64,000 bases of DNA, taken from positions 1 to 64,000 of the forward strand of contig CADCBQ010000001.1 of assembly GCA_902799745.1 (NCBI GenBank). The letters run 5' to 3'. The translations under genes were made by a program, and so were the position numbers. This DNA comes from Fibrobacter succinogenes. GTDB lineage: Bacteria; Fibrobacterota; Fibrobacteria; Fibrobacterales; Fibrobacteraceae. This document shows, piece after piece, positions 11,941 through 57,052 of this stretch. Each line of letters begins with the position of its first letter. Positions within the stretch are counted from its first letter, which is position 1. The notes under the pieces are model-generated. The model was not told the origin of the DNA. It saw only the letters and a program-made list of their open reading frames with translations, and did no database searches.

Positions 11941-12618
11941 CTACCCAACGTTAATTTCAAGCATTCCATTTAAATCAGCCGACTTGCAGGATTGAGCGAT
12001 ATCAGACAAATCACCAACTTCAAGAGTTACATACTCATTAACAGCGTCCTTTTTTCGCAACAAGAAGCGAAACTCTCTTTGATACGAGAACTCTCTTCTT
12101 TTTCGGAACGCATTTTTGGGAAACTCATCCAAAACGTTATCCTTGGAAAAATCGTAATAATTTACAGGGCCTTTGAAAAGATCAAAACCATCTTTCAAGG
12201 CTGCCTTTTCCAATCTTTCAAGAAATAATTCCGCCTGCGGAATCACAACCACATATTCGCCATACTTAATCATTTTTTCAGAAAACAACACATCCCGTTT
12301 CAAATCTTCCAAAAAAGCGTACTTCTTTTGCGAATCAAGTCTAATCGTTGAAAAGCTCATTATATAGCTTTTCAAAACATCATCATTACCACAAATTGAC
12401 ACAGGTCCAGCCAGGTCGTTCAATTCCAACTGACCAAAGGAAACTTTTATTGAATTAGGCTGAAATACTTTACAACATTCATAAGGATCGTTTTGCTTAA
12501 AACTATCAGATGCTTCCGTATTCCGAAAATAATTCAAAGAATTAAAGTAAAGGTGACCCCTTAAAAAATCATCACGATACTTTTCACAACTGAAAAACTT
12601 GAATAAACCTTTACACAT
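11941..12618 (-). CDS. Hypothetical protein, accessory island (225 aa)
   Basis: The start is placed at the ATG at 12618 because GGAG lies six bases upstream. The ATG at 12630 overlaps that ribosome site. The protein begins MCKGLFKFFSCEKYRDDFL and has LYFNSLNYFRNTEA followed by NDPYE. This is a pattern seen in DUF2971-like proteins of mobile and defence regions (a short N-terminal 'stage' with ND-P-[FY]-E). The similarity is slight and I do not claim a family. No membrane segments or signal peptide are seen. A palindrome (12653-12675) sits 35 bases upstream. Confidence 0.65.
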   Translation of the reverse strand: MCKGLFKFFSCEKYRDDFLRGHLYFNSLNYFRNTEASDSFKQNDPYECCKVFQPNSIKVSFGQLELNDLAGPVSICGNDDVLKSYIMSFSTIRLDSQKKYAFLEDLKRDVLFSEKMIKYGEYVVVIPQAELFLERLEKAALKDGFDLFKGPVNYYDFSKDNVLDEFPKNAFRKRREFSYQREFRFLLRKKDAVNEYVTLEVGDLSDIAQSCKSADLNGMLEINVG

Positions 12619-12652
12619 CTTAATCTCCATTAATGGTTAAATATACATTCCC

Positions 12653-12675
12653 ATTTTGTCAAAAAATGACAAAAT
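12653..12675. repeat. ATTTTGTCA/TGACAAAAT palindrome upstream of gene
   Basis: A perfect 9-bp inverted repeat with a 5-base loop. A closely similar palindrome, with the same ACATTCCC prefix, lies near 25625-25655. Both lie upstream of minus-strand island genes, so they may be operators or parts of another dispersed repeat. A further hairpin, GGCGAC-AGA-GTCGCC, lies at 12712-12726. Confidence 0.45.
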
Positions 12676-12760
12676 AGACCCTTTTCAAGCAAAACATCCC
12701 CATCCGTGAGAGGCGACAGAGTCGCCGCGCACGAAATTGGGATGGAAATGTCTAGATAAT

Positions 12761-12934
12761 CTACTTTTCCTTTCTCACCCCCTTAAATGGCGTGCCATTT
12801 TGCTTGACATCCATAAAGCGGCCCGTTTCGGCATTACGCTTTACAAACTGCTGCGTCCTCGGATTAAAGGTTTGGGAACGGGAGCGGACCGTTCCATTCC
12901 TATGATTGTCTCCAGATGGCGGATTTGTCGCCAT
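12761..12934 (-). CDS. Conserved small basic protein (57 aa)
   Basis: The ATG at 12934 follows AAGGAGG by five bases, which decides the start over the longer frame to 12973. The product begins MATNPPSGDNHRNGTVRSRS and ends FKGVRKEK. It is strongly basic, rich in N, T and R, and probably unstructured until bound to a partner. I recall similar short proteins (TNPP-GD-HRNG ... F-GVR-EK) in many bacterial genomes, without a known function. It lies in the accessory island between the genes at 11941 and 13747. Confidence 0.7.
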   Translation of the reverse strand: MATNPPSGDNHRNGTVRSRSQTFNPRTQQFVKRNAETGRFMDVKQNGTPFKGVRKEK

Positions 12935-44851: not shown

Positions 44852-46056
44852 TATCCAAGAACCTCATTCAGCACATTTTTCAAACATTGGCACACATACT
44901 CAATTTCTTCGTCCTTAAGCAGAGTATGGAGCGGGAGCGTAATCTCGTTTGCAAACTGGGCGTAAGCGTTCGGGTAATCCGCAATATCAAAGCCCAAGTT
45001 CTTGTAGGCAGTCATCATGGGGAGCGGTTTGTAGTGCACGTTGGTGGCAATACCCGCTTCAGCCATTTTCACGATAATTTCATGGCGCTGTTCGGCGTTG
45101 ATACCCGGAATGCGAGAAAGGTACAGGTGGCCACTGGAATAGCTATCGCCTGTAGCGTGCAGGAGCGTCTTTACGCCAAGGGGTTTCAGAGCGGCGTCAT
45201 ACTTTTCGATAATCTGGTGGCGGCGTTCAACCAAGCCCGGGTAACGTTCAAGCTGCTTGAGGCCAATAGCCGCCATAATATCGGTCATGTTGCACTTGTA
45301 GTTGGGGGCAACAATGTCATATTCCCAAGCACCAAGCTGCGTCTTGGCCAGGGCGTCTTTCGACTGGCCATGCAGAGAAAGCAACTGGAACTGCTTGTAA
45401 ACGGCTTCGTTATCGATAAAATCGCGGGTGCGCCACGTAGCGGCACCGCCTTCGGCCGTGGTCAGGTTCTTGACGGCATGGAAAGAGAAACTGGAGAAGT
45501 CGGCAATTTCACCGGCCACCTTACCGTGCCACTTGGCACCGAATGCGTGGGCACAGTCAGCCACCACGATTACGCGGCCAAAGCCGTTCTGGATGTCATT
45601 ATTCGGCTTGAAGAGAGCCTTTTTGCGTTCCACGATATCAAAAATGCGGTCGTAATCGCAGACCACGCCGCCGATATCCACCGGAATAACCACTTTGGTC
45701 TTTTCGGTGATGGCGTTTTCGAGGGCGTCGTAGTCCATTTCGAAGGAATCCTTGCCGGTATCCACGAACTTGACGGTAGCCCCGCAATGGATTGCCGGGC
45801 TCGCCGATGCGGTATACGTGTAGGCAGAGGTAATTACCTCGTCGCCGGGGCCAATGCCCAGAATGCGGAGGATAAGTTCAAGTGCCGCCGTTGCAGAATT
45901 CAAGCAGACGACCTTGTCGGTATGGCAAACCTTGGCAATTTCAGCTTCAAATTTCTTGGTGCGGGGGCCGGTCGTTATCCAGCCAGAACGTAGCGCTTCA
46001 CAGACCTCTTCAATTTCCAAATTTGTGATATCAGGAGGAGAAAAAGGGATCTTCAT
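44851..46056 (-). CDS. DegT/DnrJ/EryC1/StrS aminotransferase
   Basis: A 401-residue PLP enzyme: MKIPFSPPDITNLEIEEVCE, CLNSATAALELILRILGIGP, ITSAYTYTASASPAIHCGA and ADCAHAFGAKWHGKVAG, with the Schiff-base lysine in FSFHAVKNLTTAEGGA. These are standard sugar aminotransferase motifs, acting on a 4-keto (or 3-keto) NDP-sugar; the dehydratase at 1150-3093 may supply the substrate. First gene of the operon, with a GC content closer to the housekeeping genes than the AT-rich genes behind it. About 140 bases of leader upstream. Confidence 0.92.
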   Translation of the reverse strand: MKIPFSPPDITNLEIEEVCEALRSGWITTGPRTKKFEAEIAKVCHTDKVVCLNSATAALELILRILGIGPGDEVITSAYTYTASASPAIHCGATVKFVDTGKDSFEMDYDALENAITEKTKVVIPVDIGGVVCDYDRIFDIVERKKALFKPNNDIQNGFGRVIVVADCAHAFGAKWHGKVAGEIADFSSFSFHAVKNLTTAEGGAATWRTRDFIDNEAVYKQFQLLSLHGQSKDALAKTQLGAWEYDIVAPNYKCNMTDIMAAIGLKQLERYPGLVERRHQIIEKYDAALKPLGVKTLLHATGDSYSSGHLYLSRIPGINAEQRHEIIVKMAEAGIATNVHYKPLPMMTAYKNLGFDIADYPNAYAQFANEITLPLHTLLKDEEIEYVCQCLKNVLNEVLG

Positions 46057-46255
46057 ACGCGCCGCAACCTTCGGTGTTACCCGGCCTTTCTAGCGCTCTG
46101 CGACCACCACAGAGCCCAGTCCGACCGGAATGTGAATTTATTCCGAACAAATATAAGTAATTACGCCGCCCCGCAGGGAAAATTGAGCCCATTTTATCAC
46201 AGAAATCTTACTTTTTTGCGTAGAAGGGGAATCTCTCCCGACCAACCTACCTAAA

Positions 46256-46284
46256 GTGGTTGTTTCCAAAATGGAAACAACCAC
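46256..46284. repeat. Perfect 12-bp inverted repeat
   Basis: GTGGTTGTTTCC-AAAAT-GGAAACAACCAC. It lacks a T-run of a classical terminator on either strand. It lies between the Rpn terminator and the glycan operon promoter region, so it may be an operator or insulator. Confidence 0.6.
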
Positions 46285-46294
46285 GAAAAATGCA

Positions 46295-46325
46295 TAAAAA
46301 AGCACCCGAATCCGACGGATCCGGG
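46295..46325 (-). terminator. Intrinsic terminator of Rpn pseudogene 1
   Basis: CCCGAATCC-GAC-GGATCCGGG (46305-46325) with an A-run on the plus strand (T-run on the minus strand) past the stop at 46361. The same terminator recurs at 47059-47088 and 47970-47998. Confidence 0.75.
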
Positions 46326-46360
46326 CATAAAAGTTTTCGGGAGATGAGGAAAAGGTTCTG

Positions 46361-46905
46361 CTACTTCAGGGCAAGCATCGCCGAAATCACGTTTTCCGGC
46401 ACGTTCTGCGAACGCAAGTAATCAGCCCGTTTGGAATCTCGAGCTTCGTTCTTTTCGCGTTCATATTTAGCGCCATTCGCTTGGCCCTTGAGGAAGGCTT
46501 CAGCTTCAAGAACTTCGTATTCATGATGGTCGAACATGTTTGCCTCCAGTGCTTTGGGCAGGTCAACTACAATATACCTATTTTTCCGCGAAATGGGAAG
46601 AGCATTCCCCGACTTGACCTCATATTCACTGTAAGTGGACCACACATCCTTATAGATGTCCTTCGACCTTAGAATCGAGTCATTACAAAGCCAAATGGAA
46701 ACCGTTTCCGGGAGTTCATAGTAACGATACTTTCATTCCTCTTCCGACAGGCCCTGGAAATAAGGAGAACGGTTAAAATCATAATAGTATCCTTATCATC
46801 CATCAGAATACGGAAGGTCGCAGCGTATTTAGGCAGCAGGAATTCCTCGCCTTGTTCATTCATGACGATGTACTTCTTGGTCGGTTGATTGGTATTAGCA
46901 GACAT
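46361..46905 (-). pseudogene. Rpn-family nuclease/transposase gene, decayed copy 1
   Basis: From ATG 46905 the first frame reads MSANTNQPTKKYIVMNEQGE and RILMDDKDT, then loses frame. The following sequence in another frame reads YDFNRSPYFQGLSEEE, TGA, then KYRYYELPETVSIWL, and the last frame ends KSGNALPISRKNRYIVVDLP ... VISAMLALK. The PD-(D/E)XK catalytic block expected in between (about 60-80 residues) is deleted. Rpn proteins are recombination-promoting nucleases; this copy cannot be functional. Its terminator follows. Confidence 0.7.
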
Positions 46906-46949
46906 TTATTTTTCCTTTCATGTTAAGTTATGGCACACCCCCTTATTAC

Positions 46950-47095
46950 TTAACACGCTTTTTAGTGCAAACTGGAACCCTATCTTCTTGTAAAACTTTT
47001 GTAAAAACGAGAATTTTCCCCGGCCTCCACTCCCCGACCACCCACCCCTGCAGCATATAAAAAATCACCCGAATCCGACGGATCCGGGCACTAAA
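46950..47095. repeat. Rpn-cassette intergenic repeat, copy 1
   Basis: Begins TTAACACGCTTTTTAGTGCA ... CTATCTTCTTGTAAAACTTT, then CCTCCACTCCCCGACCACCC, and ends in the terminator CCCGAATCC-GAC-GGATCCGGG (47068-47088). Copies lie at 47861-48003 and, diverged at the end, 48949-49075. Confidence 0.75.
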
Positions 47096-47117
47096 ACTTT
47101 TTGGGGGAAGGGGGGGC

Positions 47118-47816
47118 TTATCGCTGAGAGCGACGTTTCTGAATTTCGTCCAGAGGAACACCCGAAATAACAGCGATTTTCTCAACAGGAATATCGTTTG
47201 CAATCATGGCGTCAATCATTTCGAGTTTGGCTTCAGCTTTGCCTTCTTCCTTGCTTTCATGAAGGTCATATTCGAAAGTCATGTACTTGCTCCTTATGAG
47301 AGTGTCGGCTTTGTAATAAGACACTTGATCGTTGATGGTTCTAGTTTCACGGGAGTCCACATTTCTGGTCGCAAAATACTTCATGTAAGCCTTGACGACC
47401 GGGTCCGTAAAATCCTCGTACTTCTTAAAGATATAAAAATTTTTGAAAGTGCGGTCATCCAATGTAACGCTAGAATTCTCACGCGCCCTATTTTCAAAAT
47501 GATAAGCGGGAAAACCTCGCCCAAAAATATCCATAGGGCAAAGGAAAATGATGTACTGCTCCTTGAGGCTAGTGTAATAACCTCCCTTTGAAAGAGCAAC
47601 ACCATCACCCACACTCTGATAATATCTGGCACGCTGCGGAAGTTCCTTGGTATCGACCATTTGACGCCTTCGGCGTCTGCGGCTGCACTCGGTCATAAAA
47701 TTATGCAAGCATAATTTTGCGACGCTCGTTTTGCACGCTACTGCATTTCCAAATCAAACGAGTCCGAACATAATCGGGTCGGTAATGTCTAGGTCGTCAA
47801 AAGACTTGATATTCAT
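47118..47816 (-). pseudogene. Rpn-family nuclease/transposase gene, decayed copy 2
   Basis: ATG 47816 opens MNIKSFDDLDITDPIMFGLV, then TGA at 47754-47756. In the same frame, after a palindromic insertion, the protein resumes at about 47660 with QMVDTKELPQRARYYQS, SKGGYYTSLKEQYIIFLCPM, FATRNVDSRETRTINDQV and VISGVPLDEIQKRRSQR. These are conserved Rpn (PD-(D/E)XK transposase-like) segments, but the acidic catalytic region that should precede QMVDTKE is replaced. The downstream part (47118-47708) is open and could still yield a truncated protein. Confidence 0.7.
47660..47720. repeat. Two-hairpin insertion inside Rpn copy 2
   Basis: GACGCC-TTC-GGCGTC at 47663-47677 and AAAATTATG-CAAG-CATAATTTT at 47697-47718 are perfect stems. 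They occupy the place where catalytic sequence should be, so an inserted or template-switch-derived element is likely. Confidence 0.6.
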
Positions 47817-47860
47817 TTGTTTTTTCCTTTCGGGTTAAGTTGAGGAGCACTCCCTCTTTA

Positions 47861-48003
47861 TTAACACGCTTTTTAGTGCAAACTGGAACCCTATCTTCTT
47901 GTAAAACTTTTGTAAAAACGAGAATTTCCCCCGGCCTCCACTCCCCGACCACCCACCCCTGCAGCACATAAAAAACACCCGAATCCGACGGATCCGGGCA
48001 CTA
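47861..48003. repeat. Rpn-cassette intergenic repeat, copy 2
   Basis: Nearly identical to 46950-47095, ending in the terminator stem 47978-47998. It separates Rpn copies 2 and 3. Confidence 0.75.
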
Positions 48004-48034
48004 AAAACATTTGGGGGAGGGGGAACGGGTTCTG

Positions 48035-48875
48035 CTACTTCAGGGCGAGCATCGCCGAAATCACGTTCTCCGGCACATTCTGCGAACGCAAGTAATCAGC
48101 CCGTTTGGAATCTCGAGCAGCATTGTCCGCTTCGTTCTTTTCGCGTTCCTTCTTGATTCCTTCGTTTACAAAATGCTCAGCGAAGGTTTCGTACCCCTTG
48201 TTTGCAATGGCTTCCGGACTATCCATCTTAATTACCTCGCTCTTGTAGGGCCACTTCCAAATGAAATACGAAAGCGACTGCTTGATAAAATCTCTCCCCT
48301 CATCAGTGTTCTGCATCTTGAGCAGATGCAACGCCGCCTCGCGGAAAGTAATCGAGAACTTCTCGACATCAAAAATATACTTCATTGCCGTCAAGGCGAC
48401 AAGGGTGGTGGGCGAAAAGTCCCTCAATTCAGCGTCATCAATGGCATGCTACTACAGGCACATCCTTCTTGCGTTCCAAGAACAGGTGGTGGTAATATTC
48501 CGAAATTTGGAGAAGTACGTTATCCCTGTTGGTTGACTTATGTTCAGCTATAATACCCACATAAAGTCCCGTTACACCGCCCGCCTTGATATTCGCCTCA
48601 AATACTAGATCCGCAGAACCGGCATGTTTGTCAGACGAGTGGTTTTCACTCGCTCCACGAAGGCTCGCAAGATCAATGGTATCGAGAAAAGCCTTTAGTG
48701 AGGGATTATGACGCGAGAACAGAGTCAGAAGTTCAGCCATGCGAGATGGTTCTGCAAAAGCAAAGCGGAAATAGCGATCATGAATGAAGTCGCTCTTGCT
48801 ATCTTTCACAGAATCAACGATGACATTGAATTCATGGGCAATATCGCGAATTTCAATATTTTCTTTTTCAGACAT
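48035..48875 (-). pseudogene. Rpn-family nuclease/transposase gene, decayed copy 3
   Basis: From 48875: MSEKENIEIRDIAHEFNVIV ... SADLVFEANIKAGGVTGLYVGIIAEHKS, the D-x(n)-E-x-K-like nuclease segment, then HLFLERKKDVPVVACH and a stop at 48438. A shifted frame continues LRDFSPTTLVALTAMKY to VISAMLALK (48035). The missing piece is the conserved segment after VPVVA. The last 25 residues equal the end of copy 1, showing common descent. Confidence 0.75.
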
Positions 48876-48948
48876 TAGCGTGTCCTTGTTTTAGGGTGGC
48901 CCTACGGGCACTCCCGTAAGGCGACAGAGATTTGGACCCCATCTATTA

Positions 48949-49110
48949 TTAACACGCTTTTTAACGCCAACTGGAACCCTATCTTCTTGTAAAACTTTTG
49001 TAAAAACGAGAATCTCCCCCGGCCTCCGCTCCCCGACCACCCACCCCTATCGCACAAGACAGGGACAGGCTCCCCCAAAAACCAAACAGGCGCCCTTTTC
49101 TTTTTGGGGG
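48949..49110. repeat. Rpn-cassette intergenic repeat, copy 3 (diverged end)
   Basis: TAACACGCTTTTTAACGCCA ... CCTCCGCTCCCCGACCACCC matches the other two copies, but then runs into unrelated sequence with an imperfect CCCCCAAAAA/TTTTTGGGGG stem (49074-49107) that can act as a minus-strand terminator for the gene at 49128-50186. Confidence 0.65.
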
Positions 49111-49127
49111 AAGGAGGGAAATAATCT

Positions 49128-50186
49128 CTAGACTACACAGGGTATATTTCTCTTGTGCATTTCTTCAATCAAAATAGTATCGACTTTAGCAAAACTACCG
49201 GATTCACAGCATTCTATATTCTCTTTTTGCATCCGATTAAACACAGTCGCTTCAAAATCAGAATCTTTTAACATTTTCAAATAAGCATCCAAGTTTTCCA
49301 ATTCCTCATACACAAAAAGTGCATAGAAAAGCTTCAACACAACAGCCTTATTTAGACTTGCTCTTAATTTCGCAAACATATCTTGCATCAACATATTTTT
49401 CATAAGAAGACAATAACAACCGAATAAGCTATGATCCCTTATAAAGGGGAACACCCAATAATGCGTGCAAAAAGTCATCGTAACCACCGTTTGAAAGAAC
49501 AGTCCCACGCACAATCCATAAAACTGCATTACACCATCTTTTCCTTCGAGAATTGGGAAACCTAATAAATCTAAATGTTCTAAATATCGTTCTTTTAAAG
49601 TCGGTTTTTCATATTTCAGAAAAAGGCATCGACCTTTTTCTTCACCAATACACTCTATAACCTCATCTATTGAACGAAATTTTTCCTCATATTTTTCTTC
49701 ATCCATTTTCTCTTTAGAAAATAAATTCCAAAAAGAATTTTTTGCACCTATTTCGCAAAGTTCCTTATCAACAAACAAATACGACAATGGTAGAATCAGC
49801 ACCTGATCACCATGATTTTGAATAATTTCTATATCATCTGCAATAGCATCTTTCAAATACACGGCAAAATATTTTTTAGAACCATTGGTAGACAGTAGTG
49901 CTACGGGATCATCTACAAGATGTTTCTTTCCGAATGTCAAGAAGGGATACAAAGACTTACTGGCCACATTTAGATACATTCCACCAATAAACACACATGT
50001 ATCAAACTCATATGGATAATTATTCAAAAAGAAATCTATTTCCCGTTTATGCCGTAACCAAAATATTTGGCATTCATTTTGAATTGCAAAAACATTATCA
50101 ACATCAAATGATTCATACTTCTTTAAAAGCATGAGATATTCTTGTTGCATCTTTTTCATAGATTCTATCAGCAAATCATAATCCAT
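49128..50186 (-). CDS. Hypothetical protein, second gene of a two-gene unit
   Basis: A 352-residue protein I do not recognise. It is rich in aromatic and hydrophobic residues, with a possible membrane-seeking stretch (VMQFYGLCVGLFFQTVVTMTF, about residues 220-240). Its ATG overlaps the stop of the upstream gene by 11 bases, so the two proteins are made together and are likely partners. AT-rich, unlike the housekeeping block to the right. No nuclease or ATPase motif is visible. Confidence 0.65.
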   Translation of the reverse strand: MDYDLLIESMKKMQQEYLMLLKKYESFDVDNVFAIQNECQIFWLRHKREIDFFLNNYPYEFDTCVFIGGMYLNVASKSLYPFLTFGKKHLVDDPVALLSTNGSKKYFAVYLKDAIADDIEIIQNHGDQVLILPLSYLFVDKELCEIGAKNSFWNLFSKEKMDEEKYEEKFRSIDEVIECIGEEKGRCLFLKYEKPTLKERYLEHLDLLGFPILEGKDGVMQFYGLCVGLFFQTVVTMTFCTHYWVFPFIRDHSLFGCYCLLMKNMLMQDMFAKLRASLNKAVVLKLFYALFVYEELENLDAYLKMLKDSDFEATVFNRMQKENIECCESGSFAKVDTILIEEMHKRNIPCVV

Positions 50187-51663
50187 ACTCTTTCATCCTA
50201 TCTTTCAGTTCATCTGAAATACCAAACTGTTCAATCAGGAGATTGACGGATTTATTCATTACCATAACGGCATCATGCCAAACAGATTTCATCTTTTGAT
50301 AGTTTTCTACATCTGGAATACTATGATACTGATGAGCTGGAGCTTGGCATGCTATCATTGACGATTCACGAATTGCGCCCCACAAGCCATGTTCAAACGA
50401 AGAATCATAATTATAATACAAGCTATATAGCTCTTTCTCTCCAACTTCTTTTGCCATAGCTCTAATCCCGACATCATCAAAGTAACTAGTATCAATATCA
50501 ATAAATTCTTCATCTTTAAATTCATTAACTATGGCATTTAAATAATCTACATTTATATGCGGACTAACAATCGTTTCTGTAGATTCTTGATAATTCTTTA
50601 ACACAGCCTTATACTTGCCAATTCCATGAAATTGGAATTCTTCCCATATATTTTTCCTTTCCTTTGATTTTTTTAGAAGGTACTTCATCATCAAATAACA
50701 TTCAATCATTGTCCGAACAACGCTTCTTCCTGATATCGCATTATAAAGATTATGATCAACAATTTCCATAAATCTTTTATATGAATAAACCGATAATCCA
50801 AGTAGAACTAAAAATTTGAGGTTCAATGGATCTACAACTCTATATAGTTCTCGGTAATAAAGAAAAACAGCTTTTAACGCAGAAACATAAGACTTCGCAA
50901 CATCTTTTTTCACTTCTTTCTTGTATTTAAAATACATAGAACTACACTCAAATATAGATGACGTTTTCTTCCAAAAATTATCTAGAAAAGCTTGATTTCT
51001 TTGATATTGTGATATAGAGGTTTGTTCAAAGCATCGAATAAACCCCTGTATCTCACGATATTCTTTATTTAAGACTTCTGCATCGGCATAAGAATTTAAA
51101 TCATCAACAATGTTATCAAACCCCTGATTTTTCGACAAATGTATTTTACCATTTACCGCACATGTATAAACAACGAAAAAAACAATATCTGTAGAAAAAT
51201 CAGAGTGATACGCAGTCGCTTTTTTCATTACCCGTTCAATAATGGATGACAGATACTGAACATCACTTTCACCAGAAGAAAGCCAGGACGCAAAACAAGG
51301 CTCTTCCGAGAAAGTATATATAATAGTTAATGGGGAAAGTGCTTCTTTTGGAATAAACAGTTCAATAATATTGAACACCCTCTTTTGATCTTTCTCCGGC
51401 AGCTCAAATATCGTTGACAGCCGAGGTATTATCAAATCGGGAAATTCCAATGTTATCCGTTTTAAAGCACTTGCAAGACTACGTATCGCGGCCCTTCTAC
51501 TTTTAAAATAATCTAACACCAGTCCAATCCACAAATATTCGGGCAAGCGTTCTCTGAACCAATCATTAATATTGGCTATATCTCCCAATGCAGCATTCAT
51601 TGGAGAAACAAATTTTTTCTTTTTGGGGTCAAAAATATGGTCTTTTAGTTTTGAATGTTGCAT
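50176..51663 (-). CDS. DUF5677-like helical protein, first gene of a two-gene unit
   Basis: A 495-residue mostly helical protein. The C-terminal part reads SGRSVVRTMIECYLMMKYLL and later YNYDSSFEHGLWGAIRESSM, QAPAHQYHSIPDV, which matches my recollection of the DUF5677 pattern (R-x-x-E helix, then Y--SS--H). The N-terminal 230 residues have no known match. The R/E and late H could be a HEPN-like active site. The gene leads an operon with 49128-50186 and is divergent from the ATPase/nuclease pair, so the two units share the 279-base gap. Confidence 0.65.
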   Translation of the reverse strand: MQHSKLKDHIFDPKKKKFVSPMNAALGDIANINDWFRERLPEYLWIGLVLDYFKSRRAAIRSLASALKRITLEFPDLIIPRLSTIFELPEKDQKRVFNIIELFIPKEALSPLTIIYTFSEEPCFASWLSSGESDVQYLSSIIERVMKKATAYHSDFSTDIVFFVVYTCAVNGKIHLSKNQGFDNIVDDLNSYADAEVLNKEYREIQGFIRCFEQTSISQYQRNQAFLDNFWKKTSSIFECSSMYFKYKKEVKKDVAKSYVSALKAVFLYYRELYRVVDPLNLKFLVLLGLSVYSYKRFMEIVDHNLYNAISGRSVVRTMIECYLMMKYLLKKSKERKNIWEEFQFHGIGKYKAVLKNYQESTETIVSPHINVDYLNAIVNEFKDEEFIDIDTSYFDDVGIRAMAKEVGEKELYSLYYNYDSSFEHGLWGAIRESSMIACQAPAHQYHSIPDVENYQKMKSVWHDAVMVMNKSVNLLIEQFGISDELKDRMKEYGL

Positions 51664-51740
51664 ATTACAATTCCAAAGGTATTCCGATTCGTAGAATTCC
51701 GTGGGTTATTAATTCTGTAATCTATATTAAAAGACTTTAT

Positions 51741-51761
51741 TTGTCAAATACCATTTGACAA
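51741..51761. promoter_or_regulatory. TTGTCAAAT/ATTTGACAA palindrome in divergent promoter gap
   Basis: A perfect 9-bp inverted repeat with a 3-base loop in the gap between two divergent operons. Two direct copies of AGTGCAC lie at 51867-51873 and 51877-51883, ahead of the right-hand operon. Either could be a regulator site. The rest of 51664-51942 contains no gene. Confidence 0.45.
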
Positions 51762-51942
51762 GTCTCCCGGCATAAAATAGAGCGTGACGGCGCAGAGCGC
51801 CGCCGGGCCACCCAATTTTTTTCATGAAACCTCTTGACAACCTACAAACCAAATTTTATATTCAAAAGTGCACAAGAGTGCACTATCCAAAAATTTAAGC
51901 CCCGCCTTTTCATGCATGTAGGCGGAAAGGAAGCAATAGATT

Positions 51943-53187
51943 ATGAGTGACAATGAGGAAAACTCCTCTATGACAGTGGAAAATTTGTTATTTTCAATAA
52001 AAACAGGTTTTAACGTGTCTAAGCTAACAATAAAAAATTTCGGACCAGTCAAGTCTGCCACATTGGACTTCAAAAGAATTAACGTCCTCATTGGCCCCCA
52101 AAGTTCAGGCAAAAGCACTATTTTGAAAATTGCCAGTTTTTGCAACTGGCTTGAAAAGAAAATTCAATTGACACAAGACCCTGATGAATGGACCTCTCCT
52201 ACGGTAATAAAGGATCAACTAATTACATTTCACAAGTTGGACGGCTATGCGTCGACAGGTTCTGAAATTCTTTTTAAAACAGAAACCTTACAGATTCTAA
52301 TCAAGTTTTCAGAGAACAACCATATCGACGTAGAATTCAACTGGGGGAAGAAGCGTTGGGACTACAAACGTACAAAGAACGCGTACATTCCTGCAGAAAG
52401 AAACATCGTTGCATCTATTCCCAACTGGCTAGACATTAACTTCGACAGATTCAACAACATCCGAAACTATTTGGCTGAATGGGATGTCGCACGCAGAAAG
52501 TTTGACAAAATGCACAAGCTAGACATTTTGGACATGGGCGTTTCATATTTTTATGACGAAGCAAACAACTCCGATGTTATTACCCTAAACAAGCGCACGC
52601 TTAAATTTTCGAATGCATCTAGCGGACTTCAATCGGTAATTCCCCAATACGCGCTTTTATCTTATTTATTCGATTATTCCCTTTTATTTGAACAAACTAG
52701 CCTACGAAGGGTCCTTACAGAGGCAAAACTTCGAGACCTTATTGAGCAAAATCCAAAATTGCAGAAAAAAGGCATCAACGACTACTATTTAACCAACTGT
52801 GGTGTGAAGGTGTTTCTTGAAGAACCAGAACAGAATCTTTTCCCTCAAACCCAATATGCACTTGTTAAATGGTTGGCTCGCAAATTAAACGGCAACCCAT
52901 GTAACACGTTGTTTTTAAGTACACACAGCCCATACATTCTGTCTTCCATGAATAATTTGATTCAGGCCAAGGAGTCCGCATCCAAGGGTGCAGGAGCCTC
53001 GACTCGCGTAAAAAAAATCGTTGGGCAATCTGATTTTATGAATTTTGATGAGATCAGCATTTACGGAATAAATAACGGTCGAGTCAAAAGCCTTTTAGAC
53101 GAAGAAAACCGCCTAATTGCACAATCTTTCTTAGATTCTGTTTCTATTGATATTTCCAAAGAATTTAGCAACTTGATAAATGTATGA
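51943..53187 (+). CDS. AAA ATPase of a two-gene defence candidate
   Basis: A 414-residue SMC/OLD-like ATPase. Walker A is LIGPQSSGKST (residues 49-59), and the long insert contains YIPAERNIVASIPNWLDINF. The signature region is LKFSNASSGLQSVIPQYALL, Walker B VKVFLEEPEQNLFPQTQYAL (with EE-P-E), and the H-motif LFLSTHSPYILSSMNNLIQA. A GGAAAGGAAG ribosome site lies about ten bases upstream. It shares ATGA with the next gene (overlap 53184-53187). No Toprim domain. In analogous systems the ATPase senses DNA ends or phage state and gates a nuclease. Confidence 0.85.
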   Translation: MSDNEENSSMTVENLLFSIKTGFNVSKLTIKNFGPVKSATLDFKRINVLIGPQSSGKSTILKIASFCNWLEKKIQLTQDPDEWTSPTVIKDQLITFHKLDGYASTGSEILFKTETLQILIKFSENNHIDVEFNWGKKRWDYKRTKNAYIPAERNIVASIPNWLDINFDRFNNIRNYLAEWDVARRKFDKMHKLDILDMGVSYFYDEANNSDVITLNKRTLKFSNASSGLQSVIPQYALLSYLFDYSLLFEQTSLRRVLTEAKLRDLIEQNPKLQKKGINDYYLTNCGVKVFLEEPEQNLFPQTQYALVKWLARKLNGNPCNTLFLSTHSPYILSSMNNLIQAKESASKGAGASTRVKKIVGQSDFMNFDEISIYGINNGRVKSLLDEENRLIAQSFLDSVSIDISKEFSNLINV

Positions 53188-53651
53188 GAAAGAACCCCAA
53201 AGAAAATTTAGATGAGTGGGTCAATAGTCTTCCAGACTCTTCGTACACCACAACAAGTGAATCTAACATTAAGTTTGAAGAAAACAAAAGTCAAATCACG
53301 TTTTCAAACAAATCCCAAAAGAAATGTTTAAAGATAAATGTCGATGGAGGCGTTTACCCCAAAGGCGGGAAAAACACTAGATGCGACAAGCTCCTTGTTG
53401 AAAAGGAAAAATTGCGATTTTACTTTGTAGAGCTAAAGGGAGCGGATATAGAGCATGCAATTAAGCAGCTTGCGAGTTCTATCTGCGATTCCAAACTCAA
53501 CCCAGATTGCGCTCAAAGCAAGATTGCATTTGCTGTCGGGAAAAATCATTTTCCAGCAACAAATCCGCTAATTCAGGGCTGGATGAAAAAATTCAAAAAA
53601 TTTGACGCTACACTGGAGATAAGAAACACCCCGGCCAAGTATGAACTGTAG
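53184..53651 (+). CDS. PD-(D/E)XK-like nuclease partner
   Basis: A 155-residue protein whose core reads NTRCDKLLVEKEKLRFYFVE then LKG: an aspartate followed about 15 residues later by E-L-K, with strands before and after. That is the PD-(D/E)XK endonuclease layout. GADIEHAIKQLASSI then gives the usual helix with a late Q/E. The first 60 residues are polar and flexible. The ATG lies within the ATPase stop (ATGA), so synthesis is coupled. Nuclease assignment is by motif and context; a specific family is not recognised. Confidence 0.65.
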   Translation: MRKNPKENLDEWVNSLPDSSYTTTSESNIKFEENKSQITFSNKSQKKCLKINVDGGVYPKGGKNTRCDKLLVEKEKLRFYFVELKGADIEHAIKQLASSICDSKLNPDCAQSKIAFAVGKNHFPATNPLIQGWMKKFKKFDATLEIRNTPAKYEL

Positions 53652-53681
53652 AAATAGGAGTACTTTTCTACATTTACCCGC

Positions 53682-54149
53682 ATGAAACATTTAATCTCGA
53701 AAGAAGGCTTTGAAAAGTTCAAGGCCGAATGGGAACACCTCAAGTACGTTGAGCGCCCGGCCATGATCAACCAGGTGCAGGCCGCTGCTGCCGAGGGCGA
53801 CCGCAGCGAAAACGCGGCGTACACGTACGGGCGCATGCGCGTGCGCGAGATCGACCGGAGGCTGCGCGAACTCGACCGCATTCTAGACGGCGCACAGGTC
53901 GTGGAATCGCAGGCGAGCGACGACGGCACAATCCGCTTTGGCGCAACCGTCAAGATGAAGGACATCAAGACCAAGCGAGAACGCACCTACAGCATTGTAG
54001 GCGAACAAGAGATTGACCCACTGCAAGGCCGCATCAGCATGAAGTCCCCCGTCGGCGAAGCTCTGATGGGTAAGAGACAGGGTGATCAAGTGCAAGTGCA
54101 AGCTCCGAAGGGACTGATTACATATGAAATAATCGCTGTCACCTACTAG
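53682..54149 (+). CDS. greB: Transcription elongation factor GreB-like
   Basis: A 155-residue protein with the coiled-coil N-terminal domain ERPAMINQVQAAAAEGDRSENAAYTY (GDRSEN is the tip that reaches the RNA polymerase active site with acidic residues) and RMRVREIDRRLRELDRIL. The C-terminal FKBP-like domain reads GATVKMKDIKTKRERTYSIV, ISMKSPVGEALMGKRQGDQV. The EGDRSENA and R-R-IDRR pattern is that of GreB more than GreA. It rescues backtracked polymerase by stimulating RNA cleavage. First of the ordinary chromosomal genes. Confidence 0.9.
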   Translation: MKHLISKEGFEKFKAEWEHLKYVERPAMINQVQAAAAEGDRSENAAYTYGRMRVREIDRRLRELDRILDGAQVVESQASDDGTIRFGATVKMKDIKTKRERTYSIVGEQEIDPLQGRISMKSPVGEALMGKRQGDQVQVQAPKGLITYEIIAVTY

Positions 54150-54182
54150 ATCCTTCGACTCGTTACACTCGCTCAGGATGAC

Positions 54183-54210
54183 ACTTCCTACTGTCTACTT
54201 CCTACTGTCT
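54183..54210. repeat. 14-bp tandem duplication
   Basis: ACTTCCTACTGTCT occurs twice head to tail just ahead of the tatD start codon (54219). It may be a simple slippage duplication. Confidence 0.8.
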
Positions 54211-54218
54211 ACTTAGTT

Positions 54219-55022
54219 ATGTTCATCGATACTCACTGCCACCTTGATTCTTACGAGCAGCATTCGGGCGAGGCTCTCGACTCCCTGTTTGCAAGGCTCC
54301 CCCACGACCCGGACCAAAACGTCACGGCGCCCGAGGCTTACATTCATGTGGCATGCGACCCGGCGGACTTTGAACGCGCCAAGGAAATTTCCGAAAAATA
54401 CCCGAACGTGTACACCGCCTACGGCATTCACCCGGAATATGTAGAAACCGAAACCGCCGAAGACGAAGCGCGCCTTCTTGAGTTCCTAAAGCACCCAAAG
54501 TGCGTGGCCTGCGGCGAATTCGGGCTCGATTACCACTACGGTGCCGACACCAAGGCCGAACAGGTCAAGCTCTTCGAACGCCACCTAAAGTTGGCATTGG
54601 ATTCCAAAAAGCCGATAGTGCTGCACCTGCGCGAAGCCGACGATGACGCACTCGCCGTGCTCCGAAACGCCGACTTGCGCGGCTCCAAAATCCACGTACA
54701 TTGCTTTACGGGCTCGCCCAAATTCTGCGGCCAACTGTTGGACCTCAAGTACCGCGGCGCAAACATATTCGTGGGCTTCACGGGAATCGTCACCTTCAAG
54801 AACGCACAGAACGTGCGCGACGCCGCAGCGCTCGTGCCCATGGACCAGATGCTCCTGGAAACCGACTCCCCCTACATGGCACCTATCCCCTATCGCGGAA
54901 AGCCCTGCCATTCGGGCTACATCCCCTACATCGCAGCGGCTCTCGCCCAAGTAAAACAAATCCCTGTAGAAGAACTCTACAGGGCCTGTCGCGAAAATAC
55001 TCGCCGCTGTTACGGAATATAG
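54219..55022 (+). CDS. tatD: TatD-family metal-dependent DNase
   Basis: A 267-residue TIM-barrel hydrolase: MFIDTHCHLDSYE (metal-binding H-x-H), VACGEFGLDYHYG (E), KKPIVLHLREADDDAL (H), KIHVHCFTGSPKF (H), and LLETDSPYMAPIPYRGK (D). All canonical metal ligands are present. TatD proteins are 3'-5' exonucleases and related YcfH-type D-amino-acyl hydrolases. A TatD-type gene, not part of the Tat export system. Its stop overlaps the convergent EAL-protein gene by 13 bases. Confidence 0.93.
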   Translation: MFIDTHCHLDSYEQHSGEALDSLFARLPHDPDQNVTAPEAYIHVACDPADFERAKEISEKYPNVYTAYGIHPEYVETETAEDEARLLEFLKHPKCVACGEFGLDYHYGADTKAEQVKLFERHLKLALDSKKPIVLHLREADDDALAVLRNADLRGSKIHVHCFTGSPKFCGQLLDLKYRGANIFVGFTGIVTFKNAQNVRDAAALVPMDQMLLETDSPYMAPIPYRGKPCHSGYIPYIAAALAQVKQIPVEELYRACRENTRRCYGI

Positions 55023-57052
55023 CTTTCCCCGACGTAGCTGCGTTCGATCACGGGGATTTCTTTTGCAGGCTTATCTGCAGATTTTGCTTCGGGCAGATAA
55101 TGCTGCTGCAGGTATTCCTGCGCCTTGTCGGCCGAAAGCGGCTTGCTAAAGTAGAAGCCTTGAATCAGGCGGCAGCCTTCGTCCTTAAGGAACTCGAGCT
55201 GTTCTTCGCTTTCGACACCTTCGGCAATCAAATCCAGGTTCAAGGACTTCGCAATGCCAATCACCATGCGGGCAAACGAGGCATCTTCTTCGTCGTCGGT
55301 CACATGGTCAATAAAGGACTTGTCCATCTTGAGCGTGTGAATCGGGAACTGCTTGAGGTAAGAAAGACTGCTGTAACCCGTACCGAAGTCGTCAATCGAA
55401 ATCTGGATACCCATTCCCGAAAGTGCGTTCATGATCTTGACCGTCTTTTCGGCCTCGCAAACGGCGGTATATTCGGTGATTTCGAGCTTGAGGTTCTTGG
55501 GGTTCAAATGCGTTTCGAGCAACACCTGCTTAATGTCGTCGATCATGTTGTCGAGCGCAAACTGCTTTGCCGAGAAGTTCACGGCCACCTGCAGGTCGGT
55601 GTAGCCCTGGTCGGCCCAGGCCTTTGCCTGCAAGCACGCCATACGTAAGATCTGGGCACCCATCGGAATGATCAGGCCGGTCTCTTCGGCAATGGGGATA
55701 AATTCGGCCGGCGAAATAAACTTGTTTTCGGACTGGTTCCAGCGAACAAGGGCCTCGAATGCGGCCACGCGGTTGCCGTTCTTGATATCGACAATCGGCT
55801 GGTAGAACAGCACGAATTCGCGCGCCTGAATGGCCCTGCGGATATCGAATTCCAGCTTGTAAAGCTTCATGGCCTTTTCGCGGATACCGCCGCTAAAGAA
55901 CTGGATTCCGCCGTGAGCCACGCTCTTTTTCATTTCGCGCAGGCTCGAGGTCACGTTCGCCATAATGTCTTCGACGCAGTCGACTTCGCGGTTCAGGGCC
56001 ACCGCCATCGAAACGCCAATGTAAAGTTCACGGCCTTCAAGCTGAATGGGCTGCTTTACGGCACCGTGGATTCTGCGGACAATCGCCTTGATATCGTTAT
56101 CGTCGTCGTTGAACTTGATATCGTGCAGAATAATCGCAAACACGTCGGGGCCGATACGCGCAATGGTGTCGTCGATACGGCACTGCGCCTTGATACGGTC
56201 GGCCACCACCTTGAGCACGTTGTCGCCCACATTAATAGAATAAGAGGTGTTGATCGTGCCGAAACGGTCAATATCCAACAGGGCCACCGCAAACAGGTAA
56301 TCGGGGCGCTTGAGGGCCATATCGACATCGACCTTGAGCTTTTCCAAGAAGAACTTGCGGTTATACACGCCGGTAAGAGCATCTTGGTAGGCGTAATAGT
56401 AGTTCTGCTTGGCCTGTGCCTGCTTGTCGGAATATTCGTTGAGCGCACCCACGATGCGGATGGGGTGTCCGGAATCGTTCATCTGCACATGGCCCGAAAG
56501 CATGAGGCGGCCGTCGGTCGACTTGGAATCGAGCAAGTTGACCATCATGTTGAACTTTTCGCCGTTTTCGAGGGCAGACTTGAGCGCCTTTTTGAACTGG
56601 AGCCAGTCACTTTCGACAATGCGTTCCTTGAGCAGGTCAAAGGAATCGAGCATGGTGCTGGATTCGGCCTTCAGGAGCTTGATCGCGCGGCGGGACCAGT
56701 AAACCTTTCCGGTAATCACGTCGAAGGTCCAGAAACCGCTCGCCGAAATATCAACCATCATCTGGAAGATTTCGTCGCGTTCCATGAGGTCTTTCTTAAA
56801 GTCGCGAATAGGTACGGATTCGGTGGGGGGCGGCGCAATATTCACGTCTTCGCGCATGCGCTTGCGGTTACCGATAATCGGGAATCGGTACAGAACGGCA
56901 ACAACCACCAGGAAAAAATCGGCAAGAATATAGGGAATCGCCCAAATAAGACGTTCCCTACCTGATAAAATTTCTGGAATGAAGGCTGCAAAAAAGACGC
57001 TTGCTATGACTAGCAAGAAACGTAGCACCACTTTCTCATCAAATAATCTCAT
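55010..57052 (-). CDS. EAL-domain phosphodiesterase with degenerate GGDEF
   Basis: A 680-residue signalling protein. Two N-terminal membrane helices (VLRFLLVIASVFFAAFIP, LIWAIPYILADFFLVVVAVL), a PAS-like part (FWTFDVITGKVYWSRRAI), and a GGDEF domain with the active site changed to RIGPDVF. The C-terminal EAL domain is complete (FEALVRWN, EITEYT, DDFGTGYSSLSYL, IAEGVES). Cyclase activity should be lost while c-di-GMP hydrolysis should remain. By analogy it could act on surface polysaccharide or motility, but nothing here proves a link to the glycan locus. Confidence 0.9.
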   Translation of the reverse strand: MRLFDEKVVLRFLLVIASVFFAAFIPEILSGRERLIWAIPYILADFFLVVVAVLYRFPIIGNRKRMREDVNIAPPPTESVPIRDFKKDLMERDEIFQMMVDISASGFWTFDVITGKVYWSRRAIKLLKAESSTMLDSFDLLKERIVESDWLQFKKALKSALENGEKFNMMVNLLDSKSTDGRLMLSGHVQMNDSGHPIRIVGALNEYSDKQAQAKQNYYYAYQDALTGVYNRKFFLEKLKVDVDMALKRPDYLFAVALLDIDRFGTINTSYSINVGDNVLKVVADRIKAQCRIDDTIARIGPDVFAIILHDIKFNDDDNDIKAIVRRIHGAVKQPIQLEGRELYIGVSMAVALNREVDCVEDIMANVTSSLREMKKSVAHGGIQFFSGGIREKAMKLYKLEFDIRRAIQAREFVLFYQPIVDIKNGNRVAAFEALVRWNQSENKFISPAEFIPIAEETGLIIPMGAQILRMACLQAKAWADQGYTDLQVAVNFSAKQFALDNMIDDIKQVLLETHLNPKNLKLEITEYTAVCEAEKTVKIMNALSGMGIQISIDDFGTGYSSLSYLKQFPIHTLKMDKSFIDHVTDDEEDASFARMVIGIAKSLNLDLIAEGVESEEQLEFLKDEGCRLIQGFYFSKPLSADKAQEYLQQHYLPEAKSADKPAKEIPVIERSYVGESYIP

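Follow-up and report, generated by a model that had tools for sequence, protein, structure and literature searches.

The locus at 51943 to 53651 of the window, by which we mean the whole 64,000-nucleotide stretch of DNA analysed, raises the question of what a large ATPase gene and a small nuclease gene do together when the end of one is the beginning of the other, and whether such a combination belongs to any system already described. The source assembly belongs to the genus Fibrobacter and comprises ~3 Mb in 52 contigs. The initial annotation had proposed an SMC-like ATPase translationally coupled to a short nuclease, and the pair itself holds up well: an OLD/ABC-type ATPase and a partner of 155 aa form one operon, joined by an ATGA (53184..53187, + strand) that contains both the ATPase stop and the nuclease start. 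By analogy with characterized systems, the pair very probably acts against phages, and it is probably a two-gene operon that couples an OLD-ABC ATPase with a PD-(D/E)XK nuclease (PDC-M29) and works like WonAB.

The ATPase gene (51943..53187, + strand) was annotated with 414 aa, or 390 aa if translation begins at GTG 52015. The 24 leading codons show no conservation when compared with further Fibrobacter copies, whose start aligns with GTG 52015; the annotated start at 51943 therefore appears doubtful and the 390-aa product is more likely to be the true one. Both Pfam families first suggested for this protein were recovered, AAA_15 (PF13175) at 1.9e-19 and AAA_21 (PF13304) at 1.8e-15, along with AAA_23 at 2.8e-8. 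The ABC/OLD motif set is complete (414-aa numbering): a Walker A motif, GPQSSGKST, with K57; the conserved arginine, R153; the ABC signature, ASSGLQS; the Walker B/D-loop, EEPE, within LEEPEQN, with E293/E294; and the H-switch, STHSPY, with H328. In the 390-aa numbering, R129, G204, E269, E270, E272, and H304 do not vary across 61 ATPase relatives. The structure model (pLDDT 92.1) has as its closest solved fold PtuA of retrons Ec78/Ec83, which aligns from end to end (Z 18.6, 299 of 390 residues), and Foldseek also returned retron PtuA (9e-11). Rad50 and SMC heads stand next to PtuA in the structural ranking (Z 16-18), and RecF is among the fold likenesses as well. A profile search found no Toprim domain in the ATPase or its partner, and the 390-aa protein consists of the ATPase head alone, with no Toprim or other nuclease fused to it. 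We therefore describe it as an OLD/PtuA-type ABC ATPase.

The partner (155 aa, 53184..53651, + strand) is, by motif and predicted fold, a PD-(D/E)XK nuclease. The initial annotation had read a D-x15-E-L-K core; the core is present, and its spacing is one residue shorter, D68-x14-E83-L-K85. Together with E33, D54, C67, and Q95, these residues make up the full acid-D-ExK-Q signature of PD-(D/E)XK enzymes, with the catalytic codons at 53385-53387 (D68), 53430-53432 (E83), and 53436-53438 (K85) on the + strand. Among 69 family members, D54, C67, D68, and F81-V-E-L-K-G86 are invariant, and E33, D88, A92, Q95, and P124 are nearly so. As the family is conserved down to ~20% identity, a chance open reading frame can be ruled out.

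The structure prediction for the partner (pLDDT 93.8, pTM 0.89) puts D68 where one strand begins and E83/K85 where the next one ends, followed by a helix carrying Q95. Structural re-alignment (VIA) of this model matched mostly PD-(D/E)XK enzymes at modest scores (Z 5-6.5), namely Can2, Cdn1, Card1, EcoT38I, HamA, FokI, NucS, McrC, and Avs4, and the same list includes acetyl-CoA carboxylase domains at Z ~5, so that the Z values alone prove little. Many of these neighbors (Can2, Cdn1, Card1, HamA, Avs4, and McrC) stem from defence. Foldseek returned nothing below 1e-3 for the model, with mixed best rows (APOBEC2, Can2, and CD38), and the fold call is therefore based on the VIA re-alignment together with the invariant motif. 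The structure prediction itself is a confident one, and the original reading of this gene as a nuclease survives. A search of PDB sequences with the partner family gave no match, nor did an HNH profile match the partner. An assignment to CDtoxinA was rejected, as its Pfam match (0.053) lay below the cut-off.

A scan of 84,980 genomes yielded 80 loci, or 90 once Fibrobacter and plasmid copies were added. The 90 loci span seven phyla, and 86 of them have the ATPase immediately upstream of the partner; two of the other four begin at a contig end, and two have shortened partner frames. Among 66 non-redundant pairs, the intergenic distance ranges from -47 to +10 nt, and 24 of these pairs show the exact 4-nt overlap. 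Judged from their sequences, the two genes co-evolve: their distance matrices, built from pairwise identities, correlate with r 0.84, and the best of 2000 permutations reached 0.12. The family is sparsely distributed. Within the genus Fibrobacter, 8 of 80 genomes carry the pair, no other member of the phylum searched does, and members of the family occur in 6 of 398 sampled Pseudomonadota genomes. In the tree, the Fibrobacter branch groups with rumen Bacteroidales instead of standing apart by phylum. The named Fibrobacter relatives from the genome scan are MAGs from ruminants, and one of the Fibrobacter copies (L002) keeps both genes at 91% and 83% identity. Two relatives are carried on Bacteroidales plasmids, and viral contigs contained no relative, whether the query was the partner alone or the family alignment. 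At two loci, one in Pseudanabaena (L048, 9060-10310, - strand) and one in Bacteroidales (L067, 2809-3645, + strand), the pair has a further ATPase nearby that belongs to the same superfamily but is more distantly related.

The initial annotation knew of no system that combines exactly these two components, a claim of novelty that our searches do not support. PADLOC profile PDC-M29A matched the window ATPase at 5.7e-58, covering residues 1-388 of 390 and profile positions 1-404 of 410, with AriA next at 9.8e-21. The same profile is the best one for 61 of 61 family ATPases, each at 1e-10 or better. PDC-M29B was matched by 47 of 69 partners (best 1.1e-11), and in a separate whole-genome search of two relatives (L031 and L032) it fell exactly on the partner gene. 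Neither the window partner nor any other Fibrobacter partner tested gave a PDC-M29B match up to E 10; these partners differ from PDC-M29 in scoring below the detection of the B model, and PADLOC would miss this component in them. The window partner is nevertheless homologous to relatives that match PDC-M29B (tblastn/HMM), and the two models, of 410 and 164 positions, describe a two-gene unit of equal sizes. At the profile level, the window pair thus belongs to the PDC-M29 family, the ATPase directly and the nuclease through its family only. PDC-M29 is itself an unvalidated phage defence candidate, and the literature searched contained no mention or published test of it. PDC systems, most of which lack tests, were obtained by guilt-by-embedding screening (Payne et al., bioRxiv 2024.01.29.577857, as cited in PMC12988326 and PMC13356809), and a different PDC pair proved inactive when assayed (PMC12409345).

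A characterized system of the same build is WonAB, from the WASA-1 prophage of V. cholerae, which requires both its OLD-ABC ATPase and its PD-(D/E)xK protein (PMC12137116). WonAB aborts infection by ICP1; translation stops and genomic DNA is not degraded (PMC12137116). Its essential residues are K34, R182, E300, and H333 in WonA and K71 in WonB (PMC12137116). In the window pair, too, a small PD-(D/E)XK protein comes after an OLD-type ABC ATPase, and the apparent counterparts of the essential residues, assigned by motif and spacing and not by alignment to WonA, are K33, R129, E270, and H304 in the ATPase (390-aa numbering) and K85 in the nuclease. The equivalent R, E/E, and H are invariant in the 61 ATPases, and K85 is invariant in the 69 nucleases. 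In three relatives (L016, L025, and L044), the spacing of K/R/E/H and of the nuclease K nearly matches that of WonAB; L044, with K34, R183, E303, and H336 in the ATPase and K70 in the nuclease, has nearly the WonAB numbering. The window pair departs from it in the stretch from Walker A to the conserved arginine (96 residues vs 148), in the stretch after that arginine (141 vs 118), and in the position of the nuclease lysine (85 vs 71). Our proposal that the pair works like WonAB is thus one of analogy, with kinship suggested by architecture and published residue numbers. Among the phages, plasmids, and 398 Pseudomonadota genomes that we searched for WonAB, no record could be named as WonAB. Its authors place the system close to “OLD-ABC ATPase + Novel REase” operons, which occur in 0.96% of bacterial genomes (PMC12137116) and which are attributed there to Krishnan et al. 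2020 (as cited in PMC12137116).

Other known systems share one component with the pair and differ in the second. PtuA of Septu and of retrons Ec78/Ec83 offers the closest ATPase fold of all solved structures, with PtuA sequence profiles reaching only 8.8e-10 on the window ATPase; its companion PtuB is an HNH nuclease, whereas the window partner is PD-(D/E)XK. Septu is reported to cleave tRNA-Tyr (PMC13096335). PD-T4-4, which the WonAB authors named as similar (PMC12137116), resembles the pair in organization and in an ATPase of the same superfamily (6.8e-14), but the partner family has no PD-T4-4_B match among hits up to 0.01. PARIS (AriA/AriB), Gabija (GajA), and OLD share the OLD-family ABC ATPase, as seen in the AriA match given above and in GajA at 1.7e-11, but in place of PD-(D/E)XK they employ a Toprim nuclease, either fused or as a separate partner.

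The pair lies in a 4.6-kb segment beside greA (49055..53663) that also holds a second two-gene unit. The G+C content of the segment is 33-40%, compared with 52-57% in DegT, greA, and tatD. Two related genomes (L121, G104; L124, G101) have the same DegT gene, at 92-94% protein identity, without the second unit or the pair, and in them intact Rpn genes or the Rpn upstream region run directly into greA. In the other genomes examined at this site, greA has different upstream neighbors. Because of these differences and the low G+C content, we conclude that the spot is variable and that the segment was recently acquired, in keeping with its initial description as an integration site. The second unit, at first thought unexplained, is Aditi, and the pair therefore sits beside another defence system: DitA (50176..51663, - strand; PADLOC 5.8e-164, also DUF5677, PF18928, 1.3e-20) is divergent from the ATPase gene, and DitB occupies 49128..50186 (- strand; 5.4e-73). 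Aditi is said to have been tested as a defence system by Millman et al. in 2022.

Beyond Aditi lie three Rpn-family copies (46361-46905, 47118-47708, and 48035-48875, - strand) that had been called decayed. They are indeed disrupted, by internal deletions or by shortening of the frame, and all three have the same region upstream. One fragment matches TIGR01784 (3.6e-13) and another PF04754 (1.6e-4); intact copies of 315 and 330 aa occupy the corresponding place in L121 and L124. In G101, the greA site carries, flanked by two Rpn genes, a protein that looks RhuM/Fic-like (MNEILLYKTDNAEVKVEIMLRNENLWLTQAKMAELF...; L124 ~11949-12860, + strand), so the cargo of the spot varies from strain to strain. 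Short intergenic repeats occur both in the acquired segment and in the Rpn zones of related genomes (window 51765-51830 with L124 11738-11765; window 47019-47049, 47930-47960, and 49018-49060), and are possible junction traces. Rfam gave no match within 46000-56000, so nothing there points to a known retron RNA. Enrichment of defence genes beside related loci was weak and is indicative only, as neighbors across many genomes were compared with random stretches of the source genome, and families were counted instead of proteins.

Based on these likenesses, we propose a mechanism in which the ATPase would form an ATP-dependent head-to-head dimer, detect a phage-triggered signal, and hold or license the small nuclease in a complex. 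Once activated, the nuclease would cut a nucleic acid needed by the infected cell, which would shut down and abort the infection. By analogy, RNA (tRNA or rRNA) is a more likely target than DNA, given that translation or tRNA is what WonAB and Septu act upon. A DNA-targeting effector is a possible reading that we hold to be the less probable one; here, a Rad50/RecF-like ATPase would sense DNA ends or replication intermediates, and its nuclease would cut phage DNA or all DNA. The near parity of Rad50 and SMC heads with PtuA and a list of nuclease neighbors made up mostly of DNases (EcoT38I, FokI, NucS, and McrC) speak in its favor, but fold resemblance does not reveal the substrate, and WonAB spares genomic DNA and halts translation, while the tRNA cleavage reported for Septu points the same way.

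Overlapping genes on mobile DNA, including the two Bacteroidales plasmids, could also suggest a toxin-antitoxin or plasmid- or island-stabilizing pair, with the nuclease as toxin, the ATPase as antidote, and no anti-phage role, and AriA of PARIS, a structural cousin, has been deposited as an “antitoxin.” We find this improbable: WonB without WonA is not toxic and simple sequestration was ruled out for that system (PMC12137116), and in the window the larger gene comes first and the full ATPase motif set is under strong conservation. The similarity of the ATPase fold to Rad50, SMC, and RecF would likewise fit a housekeeping DNA-repair ATPase with its own nuclease, a role made very improbable by the patchy occurrence of the pair within the genus, phylum, and Pseudomonadota, and by its place in an acquired, low G+C segment. 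That the pair is a decayed, non-functional remnant like the fragmented Rpn genes next to it is hardly credible, as neither reading frame is interrupted, none of the invariant residues has been lost, and the L002 pair remains closely similar. The WonAB-like anti-phage operon thus remains our preferred reading.

The window pair leaves the range of known system kinds unchanged. With it, a defence class for which we found one characterized example in the literature, WonAB, gains a well-resolved branch, and the alignment of 69 nucleases and 61 ATPases from seven phyla, with its invariant residues listed, should ease mutant design and the improvement of models. It is unlikely, though conceivable, that the Fibrobacter branch is a functionally distinct OLD-ABC + PD-(D/E)XK subtype that has exchanged its trigger, for instance for a signal from rumen phages, or its target, for instance for another RNA or DNA, and that has its own operator-like palindrome as a switch. 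This reading draws on the branch being unseen by the B model and on the differently placed insert in the ATPase.

The palindrome in question belongs to the region upstream of the ATPase gene. A sigma-70-like promoter, TTGACA-17-TATATT (51834..51862, + strand), agrees with the consensus at 11 of 12 positions; it is a pattern match only, and shuffles yield 1.5 weaker sites on average. Just behind its -10 box lies the inverted repeat GTGCACAAGAGTGCAC (51868..51883), which may act as an operator; no regulator gene adjoins the promoter or the repeat. It is the sole such site in the window, with 0.02 expected in shuffles when one mismatch is allowed, and both the promoter and the repeat are specific to the intergenic stretch ahead of the ATPase.
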